Origin: an uncultured Clostridia bacterium
GTDB lineage: Bacteria > Bacillota > Clostridia > Oscillospirales > Ruminococcaceae
Assembly (NCBI GenBank): GCA_947627465.1
Contig: CANQWD010000004.1
Span: 1 to 64,000, forward strand
DNA: 64,000 bases
Direction of reading: 5' to 3'
Shown piece by piece: positions 52,012 through 59,456 of the stretch. A model generated the notes under the pieces. It did no database searches. It was not told the DNA's origin and saw only the letters and a list, made by a program, of their open reading frames with translations. The stretch's first letter is position 1, and each line of letters opens with the position of its first letter. Made by a program: the position numbers and the translations under genes.

Positions 52012-52383
52012 ATGGGTATTTTACTGCTTAAACTGGCACTGCAAAATTTGTTATTTTTCGGGCTGCATTTTGAGGGAAAAAATATGTTCCCAAAACAGCT
52101 GTCGTCAAAAGAGGAGGCTGAATGTATCAAGGAAATGTCGGAGGGAAACGAACAAGCCCGCAATAAGCTGATAATTCATAATTTGCGGCTGGTGGCTTAT
52201 ATCGTAAACAAAAATTATCCCGACGCCCGCGACCCCGACGACCTTGTGTCTATCGGAACTATCGGACTTATCCGCGCCGTTGAGACTTTTGATTTCCGAA
52301 AGGGAAATCAATTCAGTACTTATGCTTCAAAATGTATAGATAATGCTATTGCACACTTTCGGAAACATTTCCTTGCAGCTTAA
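52012..52383 (+). CDS. sigK: Sigma-K, 5' part (pro-sequence and region 2), interrupted
   Basis: N-terminal part of the late mother-cell sporulation sigma factor. It begins with a hydrophobic pro-sequence (MGILLLKLALQNLLFFGL) like that removed from pro-sigma-K by SpoIVFB. FPKQLSSKEEAECIKEMSEG follows, then region 2: HNLRLVAYIVNKNYPD and DLVSIGTIGLIRAVETF. The true sequence runs to TYASKCIDN (codon AAT, 52342-52344); the last 12 codons (AIAHFRKHFLAA, then TAA) belong to the intervening element. GGGAGGG precedes the ATG. Alone it lacks regions 3 and 4 and cannot be a working sigma factor; joined to 59088-59456 it gives 233 residues, near the 241 of B. subtilis pro-sigma-K. Confidence 0.92.
   Translation: MGILLLKLALQNLLFFGLHFEGKNMFPKQLSSKEEAECIKEMSEGNEQARNKLIIHNLRLVAYIVNKNYPDARDPDDLVSIGTIGLIRAVETFDFRKGNQFSTYASKCIDNAIAHFRKHFLAA
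52336..52344 (+). other. Left recombination site of the sigK element
   Basis: ATAGATAAT, matching ATAGCTAAT at 59079-59087 at 8 of 9 positions with TAAT identical. Crossing over here joins codon Asn (AAT) to CAA at 59088 in frame and gives CIDNQIKMHFRK, the spacing of other sigma-K proteins (CIENEILMHLR in B. subtilis). The B. subtilis skin crossover is at the same Asn codon. Confidence 0.8.
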
Positions 52384-52412
52384 ATGCCTGTCAAAGCGGG
52401 CGTATATCAATA

Positions 52413-54056
52413 TTATTCGCACGCCGCCTTGATAAAAATATGCGCGTTTTCTCCGTCCCACTCTATGCGGTCGATTATCTGCCGCATAAAATTGCGCTTC
52501 TCAACTACCGTTAAGCTATCGAAACACTCTTTGAATTTTTTCAGCGAGTTCAGAATATTGTCGATAAGATTATCTCGCTCGATATTTTCCGCGCCGACAG
52601 ACACAAGTTCGGTAATCTCTTTTTTGAGCGTTTTTATTTCTCCGTCAAGGCTCTCTATTTCGGCTTTAGTGTAAGAGACCATTGCCGCGCTGTCTTCGGA
52701 TTTGGCGAGAGCTTCCATTAAATTAGCGATCATTTTTTGCTTTACGGCGATCTGCTTTTGCAGGTCGGATATTTTTTCGGAATTGTCGGCGGCGCTGTTA
52801 TTCGAATGTTTCATCAATAAATTCAACTGCTTTCCCACAACCGAATTCGGCTGACTGAATTTCAGGATCTCGTCGCAAATTAACTTGTCTAGCACGTTTC
52901 CGTTGACGTTTTTCATCTCGCATTTCGATTTGCGCGAACGCTCTTTAAATTCGCACATATAGCAAAATGTTTGAGTGCTGTCGGCGTTTTTTCGCTTGTT
53001 GGAATTGACGCGCGGGCGCATTATACTGCCGCAATTCGCACAGCGGACAAGTCCCGAAAAAATGCTGATCTCGTTTCGCACGGGACGGTAAAACGTTTTG
53101 TGCGCGTTCTCTCCTATCAAATTCTGCGCCTTTATCCATACGTCCGAGGGGATAATTCCCGTGTGCTTTCCCAGTGCGATTATCCATTCCTCCGGGGGAG
53201 TTCGGCGCTGCTGTCTGCCGGTTTGAGCGGTTCGGCGAAACGGCATAAGACCGCGCTTGCCGTCCGTTTCGGACAGCTCGAAGCAAACGCTACTTGAAAG
53301 GTCGTTGAAATAATCAATAGCGGATTTATCGGCAATACAATAAACGGGGTTTTTCAGAATATCTTTGACTGCCCGCAGGCGAAATTCGCGCCTCTCGCGG
53401 GTCTTTATATCGTGTTGAATAAGCCAAGCTGCGACTTTTGTCATTGACTGAAATTCCAAGAATTTTTCGTAGATCATTTTAACGGTTTTTATTTCGGCGG
53501 GCACTTGTTTTAACTTATACGCGGAGCGTTTTTTGCCCTCGCCGTCGATTATCTCCGTTTTTTCACCGACATACCCGAGCGGCGTCACACCGCCGAGCCA
53601 GCGCCCGGTTCGCGCCAGCAAAATAAGATTATCGCGTACTCTTTCGGCAATGGTTTCGCGCTCCAACTGCGCGAAAACCGCCGCTATATTCATCATTGCT
53701 CTGCCCATTGAGGTCGAGGTGTCGAACTGCTCCTTTATGCAGATAAACGCGGTGTGCATACCGTTCAGCTCTTCGATAAGGTTCGCGAAGTCGCCGACGT
53801 TGCGGCTTATCCTGTCCAAGCGGTAAACGACTATGCAATCGAAAGGAGCTTTTTTCGCTTCGGTCATCATCGCGCGGAACTGCGGTCTGTCAAGGTTTTT
53901 CGCGGAAAATCCCTCGTCTTCGTAAATAAAAATCTCATTGTCCGCCGCTTCGGGGAAATGACTTGAAATGTACTCTCGGCAAAGCTGTATCTGGTTTCCT
54001 ATGCTCTCGCCTTTGCCCGTGAATTTCGATTTTCTGGAATATATAGCGGTCTTCAT
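52413..54056 (-). CDS. Large serine recombinase of the sigK element (547 aa)
   Basis: SpoIVCA-type site-specific recombinase expected to excise the element. The N-terminal resolvase domain has the catalytic Ser10 in IYSRKSKFT, the active-site arginines in VVYRLDRISRN (near residue 80) and ERETIAERVRDNL near 130. A recombinase domain follows (about 165-290), then a zinc ribbon CANCGSIMRP...CYMCEF near 350-380 and a coiled coil (about 430-490) typical of large serine integrases. The gene ends 30 bp from the left sigK part and reads opposite to sigK. GAAAGGAGCAG precedes the ATG. No domain is missing. Confidence 0.93.
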   Translation of the reverse strand: MKTAIYSRKSKFTGKGESIGNQIQLCREYISSHFPEAADNEIFIYEDEGFSAKNLDRPQFRAMMTEAKKAPFDCIVVYRLDRISRNVGDFANLIEELNGMHTAFICIKEQFDTSTSMGRAMMNIAAVFAQLERETIAERVRDNLILLARTGRWLGGVTPLGYVGEKTEIIDGEGKKRSAYKLKQVPAEIKTVKMIYEKFLEFQSMTKVAAWLIQHDIKTRERREFRLRAVKDILKNPVYCIADKSAIDYFNDLSSSVCFELSETDGKRGLMPFRRTAQTGRQQRRTPPEEWIIALGKHTGIIPSDVWIKAQNLIGENAHKTFYRPVRNEISIFSGLVRCANCGSIMRPRVNSNKRKNADSTQTFCYMCEFKERSRKSKCEMKNVNGNVLDKLICDEILKFSQPNSVVGKQLNLLMKHSNNSAADNSEKISDLQKQIAVKQKMIANLMEALAKSEDSAAMVSYTKAEIESLDGEIKTLKKEITELVSVGAENIERDNLIDNILNSLKKFKECFDSLTVVEKRNFMRQIIDRIEWDGENAHIFIKAACE

Positions 54057-54184
54057 TTTACTGCTCCTTTCTGCGGTTATTTTAGATTATAATATTTTTA
54101 TGGAAGATATGTCTAAAAATGCGTTTCGTGTAATTATGTACAAACTCCGCCGCATATTATAAAAATGCCAAGGAGTTGACAGCA

Positions 54185-54379
54185 ATGTCCAAGTCTCAGA
54201 AAATAAACGTTATTATACATTTGCCCGAGGACAAGAGATCACTTGAAGCGCTTCAAGAGAAAACGAACGAGCTGTTCTGCAAAATCGTGGAAAAGAAGTT
54301 AAAAAACGCCGGTCTCTCCTACAAAGAAAGAGCCTATGTGGTAAAGAAGATCATCGAGAATTTGAAATCCGCTGCATAA
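54185..54379 (+). CDS. Small helical protein beside the recombinase (64 aa)
   Basis: MSKSQKINVIIHLPEDKRSL leads into a helical, charged body (ALQEKTNELFCKIVEKKLKN, then YVVKKIIENLKSAA). It has no similarity that I recognise. It is divergently placed 128 bp from the recombinase gene inside the sigK element, with CCAAGGAG before the ATG. Serine recombinases need a separate directionality factor to excise, and such factors are small and unrelated between systems, so this is the best candidate in the element; that role is inference from position and size. Confidence 0.75.
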   Translation: MSKSQKINVIIHLPEDKRSLEALQEKTNELFCKIVEKKLKNAGLSYKERAYVVKKIIENLKSAA

Positions 54380-54385
54380 TTTTAA

Positions 54386-54426
54386 GGCAACACCGCGCGC
54401 GAAACGCGGTCTTTGTGCGGTGTTGC
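54386..54426. repeat. Short family-1 remnant, copy 7
   Basis: GGCAACACCGC and GCGGTGTTGC, the two ends of family 1, lie only 41 bp apart with TTAA before and TTGA after. It now forms a compact hairpin that may help terminate the small gene before it. Its presence shows the family also invaded the sigK element. Confidence 0.7.
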
Positions 54427-54436
54427 TTGAACAAAA

Positions 54437-54465
54437 AAACGCGGAAGAAGATTCTCCGCGTTTTT
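54437..54465 (+). terminator. Terminator of the small element gene
   Basis: AAACGCGGA pairs with TCCGCGTTT (loop AGAAGATTC), with TTTTT at its end. Confidence 0.8.
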
Positions 54466-54482
54466 GTTTGCGTAAAAAGATC

Positions 54483-54514
54483 GAAACGCGGGAATTTAAA
54501 CGTTCCCGCGTTTC
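54483..54514 (-). terminator. Terminator of the mannanase gene
   Basis: A perfect 12-bp stem (GAAACGCGGGAA with TTCCCGCGTTTC), followed on the minus strand by GATCTTTTTACG. Confidence 0.8.
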
Positions 54515-54544
54515 ATTTGCCATTATGTTATTTTGTGCTTGCGA

Positions 54545-57500
54545 TTATCCGGGATAGCAGCAGCATACGGAGTAAACCGTGATGCCGTCGTCCTTTGCTC
54601 CGACATTGATCCTGTCGAGGGATCCGAAATCGGAACCAAACGCGCTTACCATATCCTTGTAGCTGAACTTCGCATAATTGTGACCGTTGGCAGTGCCGTT
54701 TTCAAACGACTGAACCTTTGCCCAATTTGCGCCGCCCGACCAGCTTTGCAGAATAAGCTCAAGATCGGAACCGGTGTACTCTACATAGAAGTAGCTGTCA
54801 GAAGTAATGGAGCTTGCCTCGAATTTGCCGCCATTCTTTGCAAGGTCAATGCTTACTGCCTGACCCCACGCGCCGCAGCTCGCTTCGCCCCAGAATGCCG
54901 ATACATAAGGATCGCTTTCCGTGGGCTTGTCATCGTCCTTATCGTCGTCCTTGTCGTCATCCTTGTCGTCATCCTTGTCGTCATTGCCGCTGTCGCCGCC
55001 GGTTACATAACTTGCGCTGTAAACAGTTATAGCGTCCTCAATTGCCGCAATATGGAATCTGTCAAGCTTGCCGCTGAAATCGGAAGAACCGAATTCGCTT
55101 ACCATATCTGCATAGCTGAACTTAGCATACTTGTGACCGTTTGCGCTGCCTGTTTCATAAGGAGTTACACGCGCCCAGCCTTCAGCGCCCGACCAGCTTT
55201 GAAGGATCAATCCAATGCTGCCGTCGCCTTTGTATTCAACATACACATAACCGTCTTTGGTAAATACAGACGGATCGAAGTCGCCGCCGATCTTCTTGGT
55301 ATCAAGAGATACCGCTTGATTCCATGCGCCGCAGGACGCATTGCCGCTGAAGAAGTTCGTTGTTTCTTCCTTATCGTCATCGCCTGTGGGAGCGATAACT
55401 TCTGTTTTGAGCGTTGCTCCGCATACCGTACACTCGGTATGCTTAGAACCGCTTGTTGTTGCGGTGGGCTTCTTATCAACAATCCAATCGCTTTCGTTGT
55501 GTCCCTTTGCGTGAATGGTTTCGGTGTAAGTGTCGCCGCAGTCGCCGCAAGTATACGTTATAATTCCATCTGTTGTGCAAGTCGCTTCCTTAGTGATCTT
55601 GGAAGTATAATTGTGAGTGTGGGGCTTTATGGGATCTACAAACTCGCGCTTCTCGGTATGACCGCATCTTTCGCACTTGTAGATCGAATAACCCGCTTCG
55701 GTTTCGGTAGGCTCTACCTTGCTTGAGAACTTCATATCGTGTCCAAGAGAGGGAATAGCCTCTGTATATGTATCGCCGCATTCACATGTAAATGTAACGG
55801 TACCCTGTTCGGTGCAAGTTGCCGATTTTGTTACCTTAGACGTATAGCTGTGTACATGAACGTCGCCGCCCTTATTAACGGTAAGCGTAAATACCGCTTC
55901 TTTATCGTTGCTAAATTTGAATACGAGATCATAAGTACCGTTATCAAGTGTTGCAAGATATTGACCGTTTATCATTGTCTGACTGCCGTTAACGGAGTAA
56001 TCAACACCGCCTACAAGCGTCTTATTGCCGTTGGAAACGGAATCTACGCTCTTTCCGTTAAGCACAAGATCAACTCTGACGCCGGAGGTTTTGCCGTCAT
56101 AAGTTCCGCTTGTATTGATGATGTATGGATCAAGGTCGATAGGCTTATCGTCCTTATATCCCATAATGTTATCTAAATAATATACGCCTGTTGTAACACT
56201 GCCGCCGTTGCCCGCATAAAGCGAGAACTGGTTGATTTTGGTCGTATCAAGCTTTGCGTTGCTGCTTTCCTGCCAACTTGCGAGCTTGAACTCGTCAAAC
56301 GGAACCTTAATGGTTTTAACACCCGTAAAATCTACCGTGATGTTTTTCTCGAAATATTTGTCGTTAGCGTCGCGCAGCTGCAAAGTGAAGCTGTTGCCCG
56401 AACCGTCGCCCTCGATATCAAACGAAATGCCTTTGAACGAGCTCATATCTTTAGCCGCTATCGGGTGGTTAACGCCGCAATATCCATCGCTGCCTGCAAC
56501 GTTATAGGTAAATGCCAAAGCCTTGCTGCCGTTTTTGTCAACAAGCTTAAGACCTACCTCATTACCGCCCTCATTCTTGGAATATGCCGCCCAAAGATCG
56601 TCGTCGCTCTCATATTTCTCGAACGTATCAAGCTCGTCGAGACCAGTCGTATCGGAAACGGCAACGTTCAATATGCTGTCCTCGCCCTCATAGAAGTCAA
56701 ACGTGATCTCTTTCGCGCCCGTTTTCAAGGTCTTGAGGAAAGACGCGCTGATAGTAACCGTATCGCCGTCTACAGTGTAATCGGAATTTTCGGAGAGTTT
56801 CTTGCCGTCAAACAAAAGTCCTCTAAACTCGCTTGTTTTCTTGTCCATTGTAATAACAATGTCACTGCAGGACTTGGGGTTTATGTCGACAGAAACGTCC
56901 GTAGGAGAAATTGTGGGTTTGGGAAGCTGGCTGTCCATTGTTATAACGGAGAACTTAGGAGAGTTGCCCGCCGTCATAATGATCTTCGCGCTGTGCTTTG
57001 TAAGCTCTTTGTCCTTAAGGAACGAAGACTTGATTTTAATGGTGTTTCCGTCCTTTGTGTAGTTGGAGCTTGAAAGCGTTTTGCCGTCAAATTCAACGCC
57101 GTTTATACTGCCCTCGTTGACTGTTACTTTTACTGTAACATCCTGTCCCGAAGCTCTGTCATAAGTATATTCGGACTGATCTGTGATGTTGATAATGTTC
57201 TTTTCGTTCATTATCTTAGCGGTGCCCATAAGAAGTTTTCTTGTGGACTCCGTCGCCGTTCCCTCGGGACCGTAAACGGTGTAGCCGTCATAGTCTTGAT
57301 AAAGGCTTCCGTCATCGAGGTAAGAAGCGATCATCCAATAGTTGAAGCCCTGATATTCGATATCCTCGAACGTCTTGCCCGTAATTATATCCATCCACTT
57401 CTGATAAGTAGAATCGCGCTTGGTTTTATCGGTAAGACCAAATTCTTCAAAGATAACGGGCTTATTGTATTTTTGTGTGGTTTCGGCATGGCGCTTGATC

Positions 57501-58543
57501 CAATTCGTATCGTCCTCGCCGCTGTCGCCGAATTTCAAGCCCCATTGATCCACATACATGTGAGGCGTACCGAAGTCAACGGTTTTCAAAGACATCAGCT
57601 TATCGAAATCCGCGCCTTCATAGCCGGAATAGGGGTAGTTGGGAAGTCCGGAAGAATTTATTTCGTTTCCGCTCAGATTGTAAAATCCCTCGTCGCCGAC
57701 AGATACCATGTGATTGGGATCAAGAGATTTTACATAAGCGCTCATTTCCTTTACCCAATTATAAAGTATATCGTCCTCGCAGCCGATATCGGCAGGACAG
57801 CGCGGCTCGTTGGAAAGTTCCCAAGCAAATACTGCCGAAGAATTCTTTAAAGTCTCGCCGGTATAATAATTTTTGTGGTTAAGGAGAGTTTTAACGTAGT
57901 CTTTATACCAGCCTTTCATTGTTTCGTTAGTATAAAACTCACAACAATCGGTTGTTTGTACTTTACCGGAGGATACCGATTTACCTTGCAGCATCTGATA
58001 CCATTTTACATACTGACCCATGCCGCCGAACGCTTCCCAATAGTTGGTGAACGTAATGATAAGCTTCATATCATGTTCTTCGGCTTGTTTGATAATGTAA
58101 TCGAGGCGGCGCAAACCGTCCGCGCCCTCGTTGACCTTGGGCTTTTTCTCGTCGTCATCCCAATACTGGAAGTATATGCCGTCTTTTTGACCGTCACCGT
58201 CGTTATTGCCTTCAAACACAGGATAACCGTTTTTGTCTACTTTGCCGGTTTTTCTGCCGACATCAAGGTTGCCCCAAATTCTTATTACCTTAAGTCCCAT
58301 ATCCTTTGCGTTGTCAAATACATTTTTGACTTCGCTGTCGGACTTGTACGTAAGATAATAGCAGTTAGTGCCTCCATAGTAGTACGGACTTCCATCGCAC
58401 ATAAAGCACCCGTTGTCTGCATAAACAAAATCTTCGGGATAAGTTTGTGCAGAAGTAATGCGATTTATCAACGGAATTGATGCTGCCACAACTACTGCTG
58501 CAACTGCGCCCGAGACAAACCGTTTCATGAATGTTTTACCCAC
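54545..58543 (-). CDS. Secreted modular GH5 (subfamily 7-type) endo-beta-mannanase (1332 aa)
   Basis: Signal peptide (1-33), then a GH5 barrel (about 36-450). The acid/base Glu246 is in WELSNEPRC, a pattern typical of GH5_7 mannanases, and the nucleophile Glu367 is in FEEFG. Two X2-like modules (451-540 and 542-632), a CBM11/CIA30-like module (635-800), a third X2-like module (805-892), a Cys-rich stretch with CxxC repeats (895-1050) and two copies of a module with CGAW(N/G)QAVS and LILQSWSG (1066-1182 and 1216-1328), probably carbohydrate binding, joined by a DDDK-repeat linker. No dockerin or sortase signal; it ends CCCYPG. It starts at a GTG 8 nt after AAGGAGG. It is the main cargo of the sigK element. 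Cellulase activity is the alternative. Confidence 0.88.
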   Translation of the reverse strand: MGKTFMKRFVSGAVAAVVVAASIPLINRITSAQTYPEDFVYADNGCFMCDGSPYYYGGTNCYYLTYKSDSEVKNVFDNAKDMGLKVIRIWGNLDVGRKTGKVDKNGYPVFEGNNDGDGQKDGIYFQYWDDDEKKPKVNEGADGLRRLDYIIKQAEEHDMKLIITFTNYWEAFGGMGQYVKWYQMLQGKSVSSGKVQTTDCCEFYTNETMKGWYKDYVKTLLNHKNYYTGETLKNSSAVFAWELSNEPRCPADIGCEDDILYNWVKEMSAYVKSLDPNHMVSVGDEGFYNLSGNEINSSGLPNYPYSGYEGADFDKLMSLKTVDFGTPHMYVDQWGLKFGDSGEDDTNWIKRHAETTQKYNKPVIFEEFGLTDKTKRDSTYQKWMDIITGKTFEDIEYQGFNYWMIASYLDDGSLYQDYDGYTVYGPEGTATESTRKLLMGTAKIMNEKNIINITDQSEYTYDRASGQDVTVKVTVNEGSINGVEFDGKTLSSSNYTKDGNTIKIKSSFLKDKELTKHSAKIIMTAGNSPKFSVITMDSQLPKPTISPTDVSVDINPKSCSDIVITMDKKTSEFRGLLFDGKKLSENSDYTVDGDTVTISASFLKTLKTGAKEITFDFYEGEDSILNVAVSDTTGLDELDTFEKYESDDDLWAAYSKNEGGNEVGLKLVDKNGSKALAFTYNVAGSDGYCGVNHPIAAKDMSSFKGISFDIEGDGSGNSFTLQLRDANDKYFEKNITVDFTGVKTIKVPFDEFKLASWQESSNAKLDTTKINQFSLYAGNGGSVTTGVYYLDNIMGYKDDKPIDLDPYIINTSGTYDGKTSGVRVDLVLNGKSVDSVSNGNKTLVGGVDYSVNGSQTMINGQYLATLDNGTYDLVFKFSNDKEAVFTLTVNKGGDVHVHSYTSKVTKSATCTEQGTVTFTCECGDTYTEAIPSLGHDMKFSSKVEPTETEAGYSIYKCERCGHTEKREFVDPIKPHTHNYTSKITKEATCTTDGIITYTCGDCGDTYTETIHAKGHNESDWIVDKKPTATTSGSKHTECTVCGATLKTEVIAPTGDDDKEETTNFFSGNASCGAWNQAVSLDTKKIGGDFDPSVFTKDGYVYVEYKGDGSIGLILQSWSGAEGWARVTPYETGSANGHKYAKFSYADMVSEFGSSDFSGKLDRFHIAAIEDAITVYSASYVTGGDSGNDDKDDDKDDDKDDDKDDDKPTESDPYVSAFWGEASCGAWGQAVSIDLAKNGGKFEASSITSDSYFYVEYTGSDLELILQSWSGGANWAKVQSFENGTANGHNYAKFSYKDMVSAFGSDFGSLDRINVGAKDDGITVYSVCCCYPG

Positions 58544-58576
58544 CGCGTTTTCCTCCTTAACTTAAAAACACACTTT

Positions 58577-58677
58577 AGTAATCGTTTTCAGTTAACCTAA
58601 TATTAACTGTGATTTTATTTTATCACAGCTTTTGATTTAAGTCAATATAATTTTCAAAAAATGTGTAATCGTTTTCA
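58577..58677 (-). promoter_or_regulatory. Mannanase promoter with two LacI/CcpA-type operators
   Basis: Minus strand TTGACT (58640-58645), 17 bp, TAAAAT (58617-58622). TGAAAACGATTACT (58577-58590) lies downstream of the start point and TGAAAACGATTACA (58664-58677) upstream of -35; both fit the catabolite-responsive/LacI-type consensus TGnAAnCGnTnnCA. TGTGAT-N8-ATCACA overlaps the -10 box. Repression by a sugar-responsive LacI-family protein or CcpA is likely. Confidence 0.7.
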
Positions 58678-58756
58678 GTTTTTCTCTGTTTGTTACAATT
58701 TTCCAACTCTATCTTTGTTGATTATTGCTATATGTTATTTTCAAAGTAGAAAATTT

Positions 58757-58800
58757 TAGGTAAATGCTCATAATATTTACCTAATCTGTTAGGTAAATAT
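58757..58800. promoter_or_regulatory. Palindromic TAGGTAAATAT sites
   Basis: ATATTTACCTA (58773-58783) and TAGGTAAATAT (58790-58800) are perfect 11-bp inverted copies 6 bp apart, with a third half-site TTTTAGGTAAAT from 58755. They may bind a protein or form a hairpin. The rest of 58801-59078 (AT-rich, then a GTCCGAT...ATCGGAC stem near 58952-58998) shows no convincing gene; it may contain the right recombinase-binding arm. Confidence 0.4.
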
Positions 58801-59078
58801 CAGCTTATAATTTACTTAAATTATAGAGCTACATTACTTAAAATATTTTTGGCAGTATTTCTTTGTACCTCGCATGACGGAGAAAACAGCCGAATATATT
58901 ATTCATATAATCACCGCGTCTTGTTCTGTTGATCAAGAGCCGCTGAACGCTTGTCCGATCTCCAAGGGGTAAGCTTTTCAAAATCGGACGAGAACAAAAG
59001 TGCGCGGGCGGGGTATTTTGTTCCGACGACCCTACATTATTATATAAGCGGCGCTGCAAGCGTTTCCGTTGATGTGTA

Positions 59079-59087
59079 ATAGCTAAT
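59079..59087 (+). other. Right recombination site of the sigK element
   Basis: ATAGCTAAT, partner of 52336-52344. Codon phase (ATA GCT AAT CAA) matches the left site (ATA GAT AAT), so excision keeps the sigK frame. Confidence 0.8.
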
Positions 59088-59456
59088 CAAATAAAAATGC
59101 ATTTTCGCAAAATCAAGCATCAGCAAAACGAGCTTAATTTATTCGATCCTATCGAAAACGACGGCGAGGGAAACGCTCTGACTTTGGCGGATATTTTCGC
59201 GAGCGAAATTAACGTTGAAAAGAACGCGGAGCTTACCATTTACTCCGAAAAGCTGTACAAATTCATTAAAGAAGAACTCACCAAACGCGAGCGGGAGATA
59301 ATATGCAAGCGCTATGGGATCCCCGATCTGGACGGAAGCGTATGCAAGCCCATGCCGCAGCGCGAGATCGCCAAGGAAATGAGAATTTCACGAAGCTACG
59401 TTTCAAGGATCGAAAAAAAGGCGCTCCAAAAGCTTAGGGCGCGGTTTGAGGAATAA
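59088..59456 (+). CDS. sigK: Sigma-K, 3' part (regions 3 and 4)
   Basis: C-terminal 122 residues of sigma-K: QIKMHFRKIKHQQNELNLFD, ENDGEGNALTLADIFASE (the family's DKEGNEISLIDVL segment), a region 3/4 linker, then region 4 with KREREIICKRYGIPD and the helix-turn-helix QREIAKEMRISRSYVSRIEK. There is no ribosome binding site or usable start at its own 5' end; it is expressed only after joining to the part at 52012. Residues before CAA (59088) belong to the element. Followed by alaS behind its own promoter. Confidence 0.92.
   Translation, partial: QIKMHFRKIKHQQNELNLFDPIENDGEGNALTLADIFASEINVEKNAELTIYSEKLYKFIKEELTKREREIICKRYGIPDLDGSVCKPMPQREIAKEMRISRSYVSRIEKKALQKLRARFEE

Follow-up and report, generated by a model that had tools for sequence, protein, structure and literature searches.

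What is a 6.74-kb insert with a large glycoside hydrolase gene doing inside sigK, a gene required for sporulation? The question arises from the window (the whole stretch of DNA analysed, 64,000 nucleotides; contig CANQWD010000004.1, positions 1 to 64,000, assembly GCA_947627465.1) of an uncultured Clostridia bacterium of the family Ruminococcaceae, in which sigK is interrupted after codon 111 (position 52344) and continues at 59088. We interpret the insert as a functional skin element, which would be excised during development by a large serine recombinase together with a small companion protein (Orf64) and which carries a captured GH5 gene as a passenger inherited through the spore, and we assign this interpretation a probability of about 0.84. 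The preliminary description of the locus had proposed a compact skin-type element in sigK dominated by a glycoside hydrolase, and the length of the insert, the joined frame, the half-sites at its ends and the recombinase all agree with that proposal.

The 5' part of sigK (52012..52344, forward strand) comprises a pro-sequence-like start and region 2, covers 111 codons to the crossover, and ends where intact relatives continue, while the 3' part (59088..59456, forward strand) encodes regions 3-4 according to NCBIfam and Pfam. SigK models are the best NCBIfam match of both parts, with the Pfam domains Sigma70_r2 and Sigma70_r4. Without rearrangement, the 5' part reads through into the start of a half-site (52345..52383, forward strand, here called p) up to a stop codon, and the product would be 123 amino acids (aa) long. 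Joining the halves in silico yields one frame of 233 aa, of which 206 residues are identical to the uninterrupted SigK of a genome from the same genus (G063); the peptide across the junction (...KCIDNQIKMHFRKIK...) is also present in the latter protein, and the predicted joined DNA junction reads ...GATAATCAAATAAAAATG.... The split, the coordinates of both parts and the restored 233-residue frame had been given in the preliminary description; its junction proved exact in the alignment of split and intact relatives, and the frame is borne out by the match to G063. An intact sigK elsewhere in the genome, which the same description regarded as incompatible with a skin element, was not found by a SigK model search of this assembly (G000; 2.52 Mb, 97.35% complete, 52 contigs). 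The model matches 12 places, and only the two pieces in the window were taken as sigK. The others, named by reading their translations, are sigE, sigG, sigF, two RpoD-like genes, and a weak (24-bit) sigma-like protein; the 247-bit match is sigE beside a SpoIIGA-like gene, and sigF sits beside SpoIIAA/AB-like genes.

The crossover was placed in the tetranucleotide TAAT by aligning intact and split sigK genes of relatives, with the attL core at 52341..52344 and the attR core at 59084-59087, at the end of the q half-site (59042..59087; all on the forward strand). Here, q denotes the half-site left of the sigK 3' part and p that right of the 5' part. Brought together, they form an attP dyad, GTTTCCG...GTGTAATAGC-TAAT-GCTATTGCACAC...CGGAAAC, with 20 of 30 positions complementary, a value equalled by one of 20000 shuffles over the same 12 centres. 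As the central dinucleotide AA, assigned from the dyad centre, is non-palindromic and both att copies have the same orientation, recombination between them is expected to delete the insert. The window alone had suggested TGCA, at the codons HFR, as the crossover, a placement that the alignment of intact and split relatives ruled out.

The comparison with uninterrupted copies in related genomes that the preliminary description had proposed covered 43 genomes of the genus and found contiguous sigK halves in 24 (20 whole; G024 cut at the 5' end; G018, G027, and G030 truncated within the 3' half where their contigs end). A separate 5' half occurs in 13 genomes (G000, G002, G003, G005, G006, G007, G010, G013, G020, G029, G031, G034, and G066), and no 5' half was seen in six (G004, G008, G019, G022, G032, and G036). 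The recombinase of the window (547 aa; 52413..54056, reverse strand) matches the Resolvase, Recombinase, and Zn_ribbon_recom families and carries the motif YSRKS with Ser10. Matches to it with E ≤ 2.1e-207 and at least 59% identity are found in exactly the 13 split-sigK genomes and in none of the 30 others, a co-occurrence with a chance probability of 2.7e-11 if genomes are assumed to be independent, which they are not. Because the joined frame is exact, the half-sites form an attP dyad, no other sigK was found, and the recombinase occurs in exactly the split-sigK genomes, we regard the insert as a sigK skin element; its removal restores the frame, it has a serine recombinase and half-sites at both ends, and relatives have uninterrupted genes. 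An assembly of 52 contigs could in principle contain a chimera in which an unrelated GH5 contig was placed into sigK, but the recombinase, Orf64, and half-sites fit those of independently assembled relatives and two distant half-sites form a dyad, making such an artefact extremely unlikely.

A selfish or stray insertion that simply broke sigK, in a non-sporulating host and without programmed excision, would leave a similar gene arrangement. Loss of sigK may indeed occur in the genus, as six of the 43 genomes have no visible 5' half (three of the six are less than 86% complete). Against a broken gene, the sigK 5' part, the recombinase, and the cargo gene are all open, and rough ratios of nonsynonymous to synonymous substitution rates (dN/dS), estimated with synonymous sites near saturation, show purifying selection on the 5' part (0.05), the recombinase (0.07, vs. 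G020), and the GH5 gene (0.10, vs. G063); no ratio could be obtained for the sigK 3' part because its synonymous sites are saturated. Moreover, the rejoined frame is exact and sporulation regulators are present, with Spo0A scoring above its cut-off. We consider disruption in a non-sporulating host improbable.

If the insert is a developmentally excised skin element, a factor that directs the recombinase might be expected among its genes, and Orf64 (54185..54379, forward strand) is the candidate for this role. This 64-residue protein, correctly placed between the sigK parts by the preliminary description, would be 67 aa long if the TTG at 54176 is the start, and this longer form was used in all Orf64 analyses. 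It has zero matches in Pfam, NCBIfam, and PHROGs, its predicted structure consists of two helices (mean pLDDT 88.5), and a Foldseek search of the model against the PDB found nothing; the rough dN/dS is 0.22 (vs. G020, with synonymous sites again near saturation). A hidden Markov model (HMM) seeded by the Orf64 of the window, using phmmer at 1e-5 and then four rounds at 1e-4, matches 18 of the 43 genus genomes, namely all 13 with split sigK plus G008, G015, G016, G019, and G027. In 12 of the 13 split genomes, the homologue shares a contig with the recombinase; in the remaining one, G029, the recombinase contig begins 386 bases before the gene and both Orf64 hits are on other contigs.

The association extends beyond the genus. 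When public genomes were scanned with the recombinase alignment, the best 80 of at least 533 relatives were kept, and 16 of these have a sigK half on either side of the recombinase (L136, L137, L145, L148, L160, L161, L162, L165, L170, L179, L183, L184, L185, L186, L189, and L191; in L137, the 5' half is cut by the locus edge). In the other 64 loci, which were excluded from the counts, at least one half is missing or not flanking, many being truncated at the 10-kb flank limit or where the contig ends. The 16 inserts range from ~2.7 to 11.5 kb, a range bounded by the 10-kb flank, and all contain an Orf64-family open reading frame of 55-136 aa between the halves, although the HMM includes these 16 hits and their E-values are not independent. 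Upstream of Orf64 in the window, a block of the form GTAAT..TGTACAA..CATATTAT (54130..54160, forward strand) is conserved in the genus, with CATA(T/A)TAT in all ten members compared and TGTACAA in nine of them (not in G003). This block resembles a SigE-like -10 element and a SpoIIID-like box, and its conservation is the basis of the weaker proposal that Orf64 may be under SigE/SpoIIID control in this genus. These findings also bear on the alternative of a mobilizable element without developmental control, in which the recombinase alone suffices and Orf64 is a repressor or an accessory gene. In its favour, a larger relative of the element in G020 (39 kb) carries a relaxase, and Orf64 homologues away from sigK in G019 and G029 are found near genes that are relaxase-like in their translations. 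However, the presence of Orf64 with the recombinase in 16 of 16 compared skins and on the same contig in 12 of 13 split genomes, together with the conserved block upstream, makes an element outside developmental control rather unlikely.

Several further observations weigh against a functional, developmentally excised skin element. The host is an uncultured organism with an assembly of 52 contigs, and its SpoIIID match, at 109 bits, is just below the cut-off of 111.5. In the window, the SigE-like -10 element preceding Orf64 does not exceed chance expectation (p 0.68 by shuffling), and among 30 loci p values below 0.05 were obtained for only five, none of them in the genus of the window (L165, L145, L137, and L186 with no mismatches, p 0.004-0.014; L109 with one mismatch, p 0.044). 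In the wider recombinase family, presence does not depend on a split sigK: G064 encodes a contiguous sigK and, on another contig, a full-length recombinase with 40% identity, and G012 and G065 have kept recombinase fragments beside a sigK 3' half. Similarly, the Orf64 family is not exclusive to skins, since its members in G008, G019, G027, and G029 (both homologues in the last) are located away from any seen sigK part. Finally, the recombinase of the window adjoins the sigK 5' half. Only L160 and L162 among the 16 compared skins share this position; in the other 14 and in Clostridioides difficile, the gene is nearest the 3' half. The side of sigK towards which the recombinase end of the element points differs between lineages.

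In the mechanism that we propose for the skin element, it would remain in place in growing cells and in the forespore, where sigK would be off and yield the truncated product. In the mother cell, Orf64, under SigE/SpoIIID control, would switch the recombinase to recombination of attL with attR; the element would then leave as a circle carrying attP, and sigK would become a single frame. The GH5 gene would be a captured chromosomal gene that travels as a passenger and retains its own upstream region, its mannanase being used during growth on plant mannan and the gene being inherited through the spore. Selection on the recombinase may be maintained by the link to a sporulation-required gene, and a dying mother cell would pay little for losing the passenger. 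Since it lies inside a sigK skin element, the GH5 gene should be kept in the spore and removed from the dying mother cell, and the earlier wording that the sporulation switch protects the gene should be read as inheritance with the spore. That the element is excised, and in the mother cell only, that Orf64 directs the reaction, and that the arrangement is beneficial are what we infer.

The cargo gene (54545..58543, reverse strand) encodes a protein of 1332 aa with a GH5 domain, three stretches of CBM_X2, CBM_11, two stretches of CBM65, and a signal peptide recognised by reading. Its catalytic part (411 aa) has 16 matches in the PDB at E ≤ 1e-5, of which the best 12 are annotated mannanases and the last four MAN5A or exo-mannosidase. 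The initial naming of the cargo as a secreted mannanase is supported by this homology, on which the assignment as a putative beta-mannanase rests. The translation also contains the NEP and EEFG motifs. A search of 120 genomes at E ≤ 1e-20 found the GH5 catalytic domain in only three besides G000 (G063, G011, and G021), all with contiguous sigK. G063 carries two copies (87% and 71% identity), and both of these as well as the single copy in G011 follow a purine-nucleoside phosphorylase (PNP) gene; in G021, the GH5 and phosphorylase genes are on separate contigs. The PNP locus of G000 (C18:5946-6773) has no GH5 gene, and its surroundings can still be recognised, with an inversion of one segment. 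At the DNA level, homology to the G063 copy with 87% identity spans 55740 to 58798 and continues beyond the start codon into the upstream region (58544..58800, reverse strand), which contains two GTAATCGTTTTCAGTT repeats (58578-58593 and 58665-58680) that are LacI/CcpA-operator-like. Because the gene is PNP-adjacent in relatives, the corresponding place is empty in G000, and the homology extends upstream, the GH5 gene was probably moved from another chromosomal site into the skin, together with its own control region.

The mannanase might alternatively be needed in the mother cell or on the spore, with its removal forming part of its regulation. The GH5 gene is the only large cargo of the element, and G003 has the same order of sigK 5' half, recombinase, and Orf64, followed by a xylanase/xylosidase-like gene with CBM6 (the contig ends inside this gene, and the other end of the element is unseen). 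Nevertheless, relatives of the GH5 gene are found outside sigK in three genomes in which sigK is contiguous, and the copy in the window has kept its own upstream region, so that a sporulation-specific role appears very unlikely and the passenger interpretation is preferred. Terminator-like inverted repeats were noted by eye between Orf64 and the GH5 gene (54380..54544, no strand assigned). Phage structural or replication genes were not found in the 6.74-kb insert, which encodes only the recombinase, Orf64, and the GH5 protein (Pfam, and PHROGs for the recombinase and Orf64), and no Rfam family matched between 50000 and 62000.

How does this element relate to known systems? In C. difficile, the skin is excised by a Ser10 recombinase (CD1231) and a 72-aa factor (CD1234) under SigE/SpoIIID control (PMC5025042). 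Like the element in the window, it lies in sigK, has a Ser10 serine recombinase, and is bordered by att inverted repeats. CD1234, reported to have no significant similarity to database proteins (PMC5025042), is a small companion protein, as is the 64-aa Orf64. In contrast to the three genes and glycoside hydrolase cargo found here, the C. difficile skin comprises 19 genes and is called prophage-like, its recombinase adjoins the 3' rather than the 5' half, and its SigK is without the pro-sequence, whereas the window has a pro-sequence-like start (PMC5025042). The skin of Bacillus subtilis also interrupts sigK, relies on a site-specific recombinase for its excision, and bears non-phage adaptive cargo, the ars operon (PMC12607644), but it is a large prophage remnant of 48 kb that carries arsenic resistance, not polysaccharide breakdown (PMC12607644, PMC13141910). 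The gin element in gerE of Bacillus cereus ATCC10987 is likewise gene-intervening, without phage genes, and equipped with a recombinase and an extra factor (GirC, GirX), yet it differs in its length of 28.6 kb, its position in gerE, and its three serine recombinases (PMC5595907).

Compact skins with metabolic cargo are also found in Lacrimispora and related clostridia (L137, L165, L186, L189, and L191). Like the element in the window, they have a related recombinase and an adjoining Orf64 member, but their recombinase is beside the 3' half, and a NiFe hydrogenase large subunit is encoded in three of them (L137, L186, and L189; Pfam), with HypF, HypD, and an AIRS-type protein in addition in L137. 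A NiFe hydrogenase was also noted in the L191 skin, by reading only. Proteins of the alpha-galactosidase family Melibiase_2 are encoded in L137, L165, L189, and L191 (Pfam). As these five loci look like a related group, their cargo may reflect a single capture. An Oscillospiraceae skin (L179:1637-9818) encodes 3-dehydroquinate synthase, chorismate synthase, EPSP synthase, and chorismate mutase/prephenate dehydratase (Pfam), and the skins of L145 and L160 are nearly empty. The preliminary description had considered the arrangement in the window as not previously described. This holds for the specific cargo, in that no glycosidase- or hydrogenase-bearing skin was found in the open-access literature as judged by titles and abstract openings (most subscription journals were outside this scope), but not for the principle, because adaptive cargo has a precedent in ars and metabolic cargo occurs in other clostridial skins.

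Within the genus of the window, two further configurations of sigK were observed. Extra sigK 3' halves lie behind q-type half-sites (that of L086 being altered) and are separated by cargo genes. G016 has seven in addition to an intact sigK (C13, L080-L083; C41, L085; C5, L086), G032 has four and no 5' half (C7, C19; L087-L089), and two and one, respectively, accompany an intact sigK in G015 (C131, C57) and G012 (C55). For six of the seven in G016 (L086 was dropped for its shorter start), dS is 0.81 and dN/dS 0.02, and the extra halves may be in use or recently gathered from donors that used them. In G005, G007, G010, and G066, both halves share a strand, but the 3' half precedes the 5' half by ~47-58 kb (C2:37255 and 85157 in G010), and the interval between them in G010 is full of housekeeping genes as judged by their translations. 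The flanks of this permuted locus match those of the intact G023, with a response regulator and a kinase before and MATE and SpoVT after, and the recombinase is separated from the 5' half by genes for biotin synthase, BioY, and a biotin ligase (assigned by Pfam in the G010 set). In these permuted genomes, a deletion between the att sites would rebuild sigK on the released circle.

Taken together, these loci raise the tentative and still doubtful idea that sigK acts throughout the clostridia as a docking site for metabolic genes of the growth phase (mannanase, alpha-galactosidase, NiFe hydrogenase, shikimate, biotin), which might be stored in an element that is inherited by the spore, eliminated from the mother cell, and run by a serine recombinase and an Orf64-family factor. 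In the genus of the window, this might have been elaborated to alternative 3' halves on cargo units of their own (in G016, seven extra halves, of which the six tested are under purifying selection) and to a 3' half ~47-58 kb upstream, with sigK rebuilt only on a circle together with housekeeping genes. The element in the window widens the range of skin elements from prophage remnants to compact, phage-free carriers of genes for plant-polysaccharide and central metabolism, one of which appears to have received a relocated chromosomal gene. Programmed DNA elimination in bacteria could accordingly be a route to store ordinary genes in the spore lineage only, and the Orf64 family offers a testable candidate for a general directionality factor of clostridial skins.

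Some minor observations complete the picture. The 39-kb element in sigK of G020 (C4:29556-68705), which carries the relaxase, has a second, degenerate sigK 3' half beyond it and suggests a mobilizable ancestor of the compact skin. Assembly forks in which a contig with contiguous sigK and a contig with the q half run into the same 3' half (G030 C111, C110, and C9; G018 C8 and C11) were considered as proof of excision and rejected, as single-base differences before the shared suffix fit two copies or strains equally well; in G030, the 5'-3' and q-3' contigs share a suffix of 119 bases, and the overlap of each with a third contig is 101 bases long. A scan of viral contigs yielded at least 80 recombinase relatives with 34-52% identity. 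In Faecalibacterium prausnitzii, a species usually held to be non-sporulating, a recombinase relative (L169) lies beside a weak SigK-3'-like stretch (37%).

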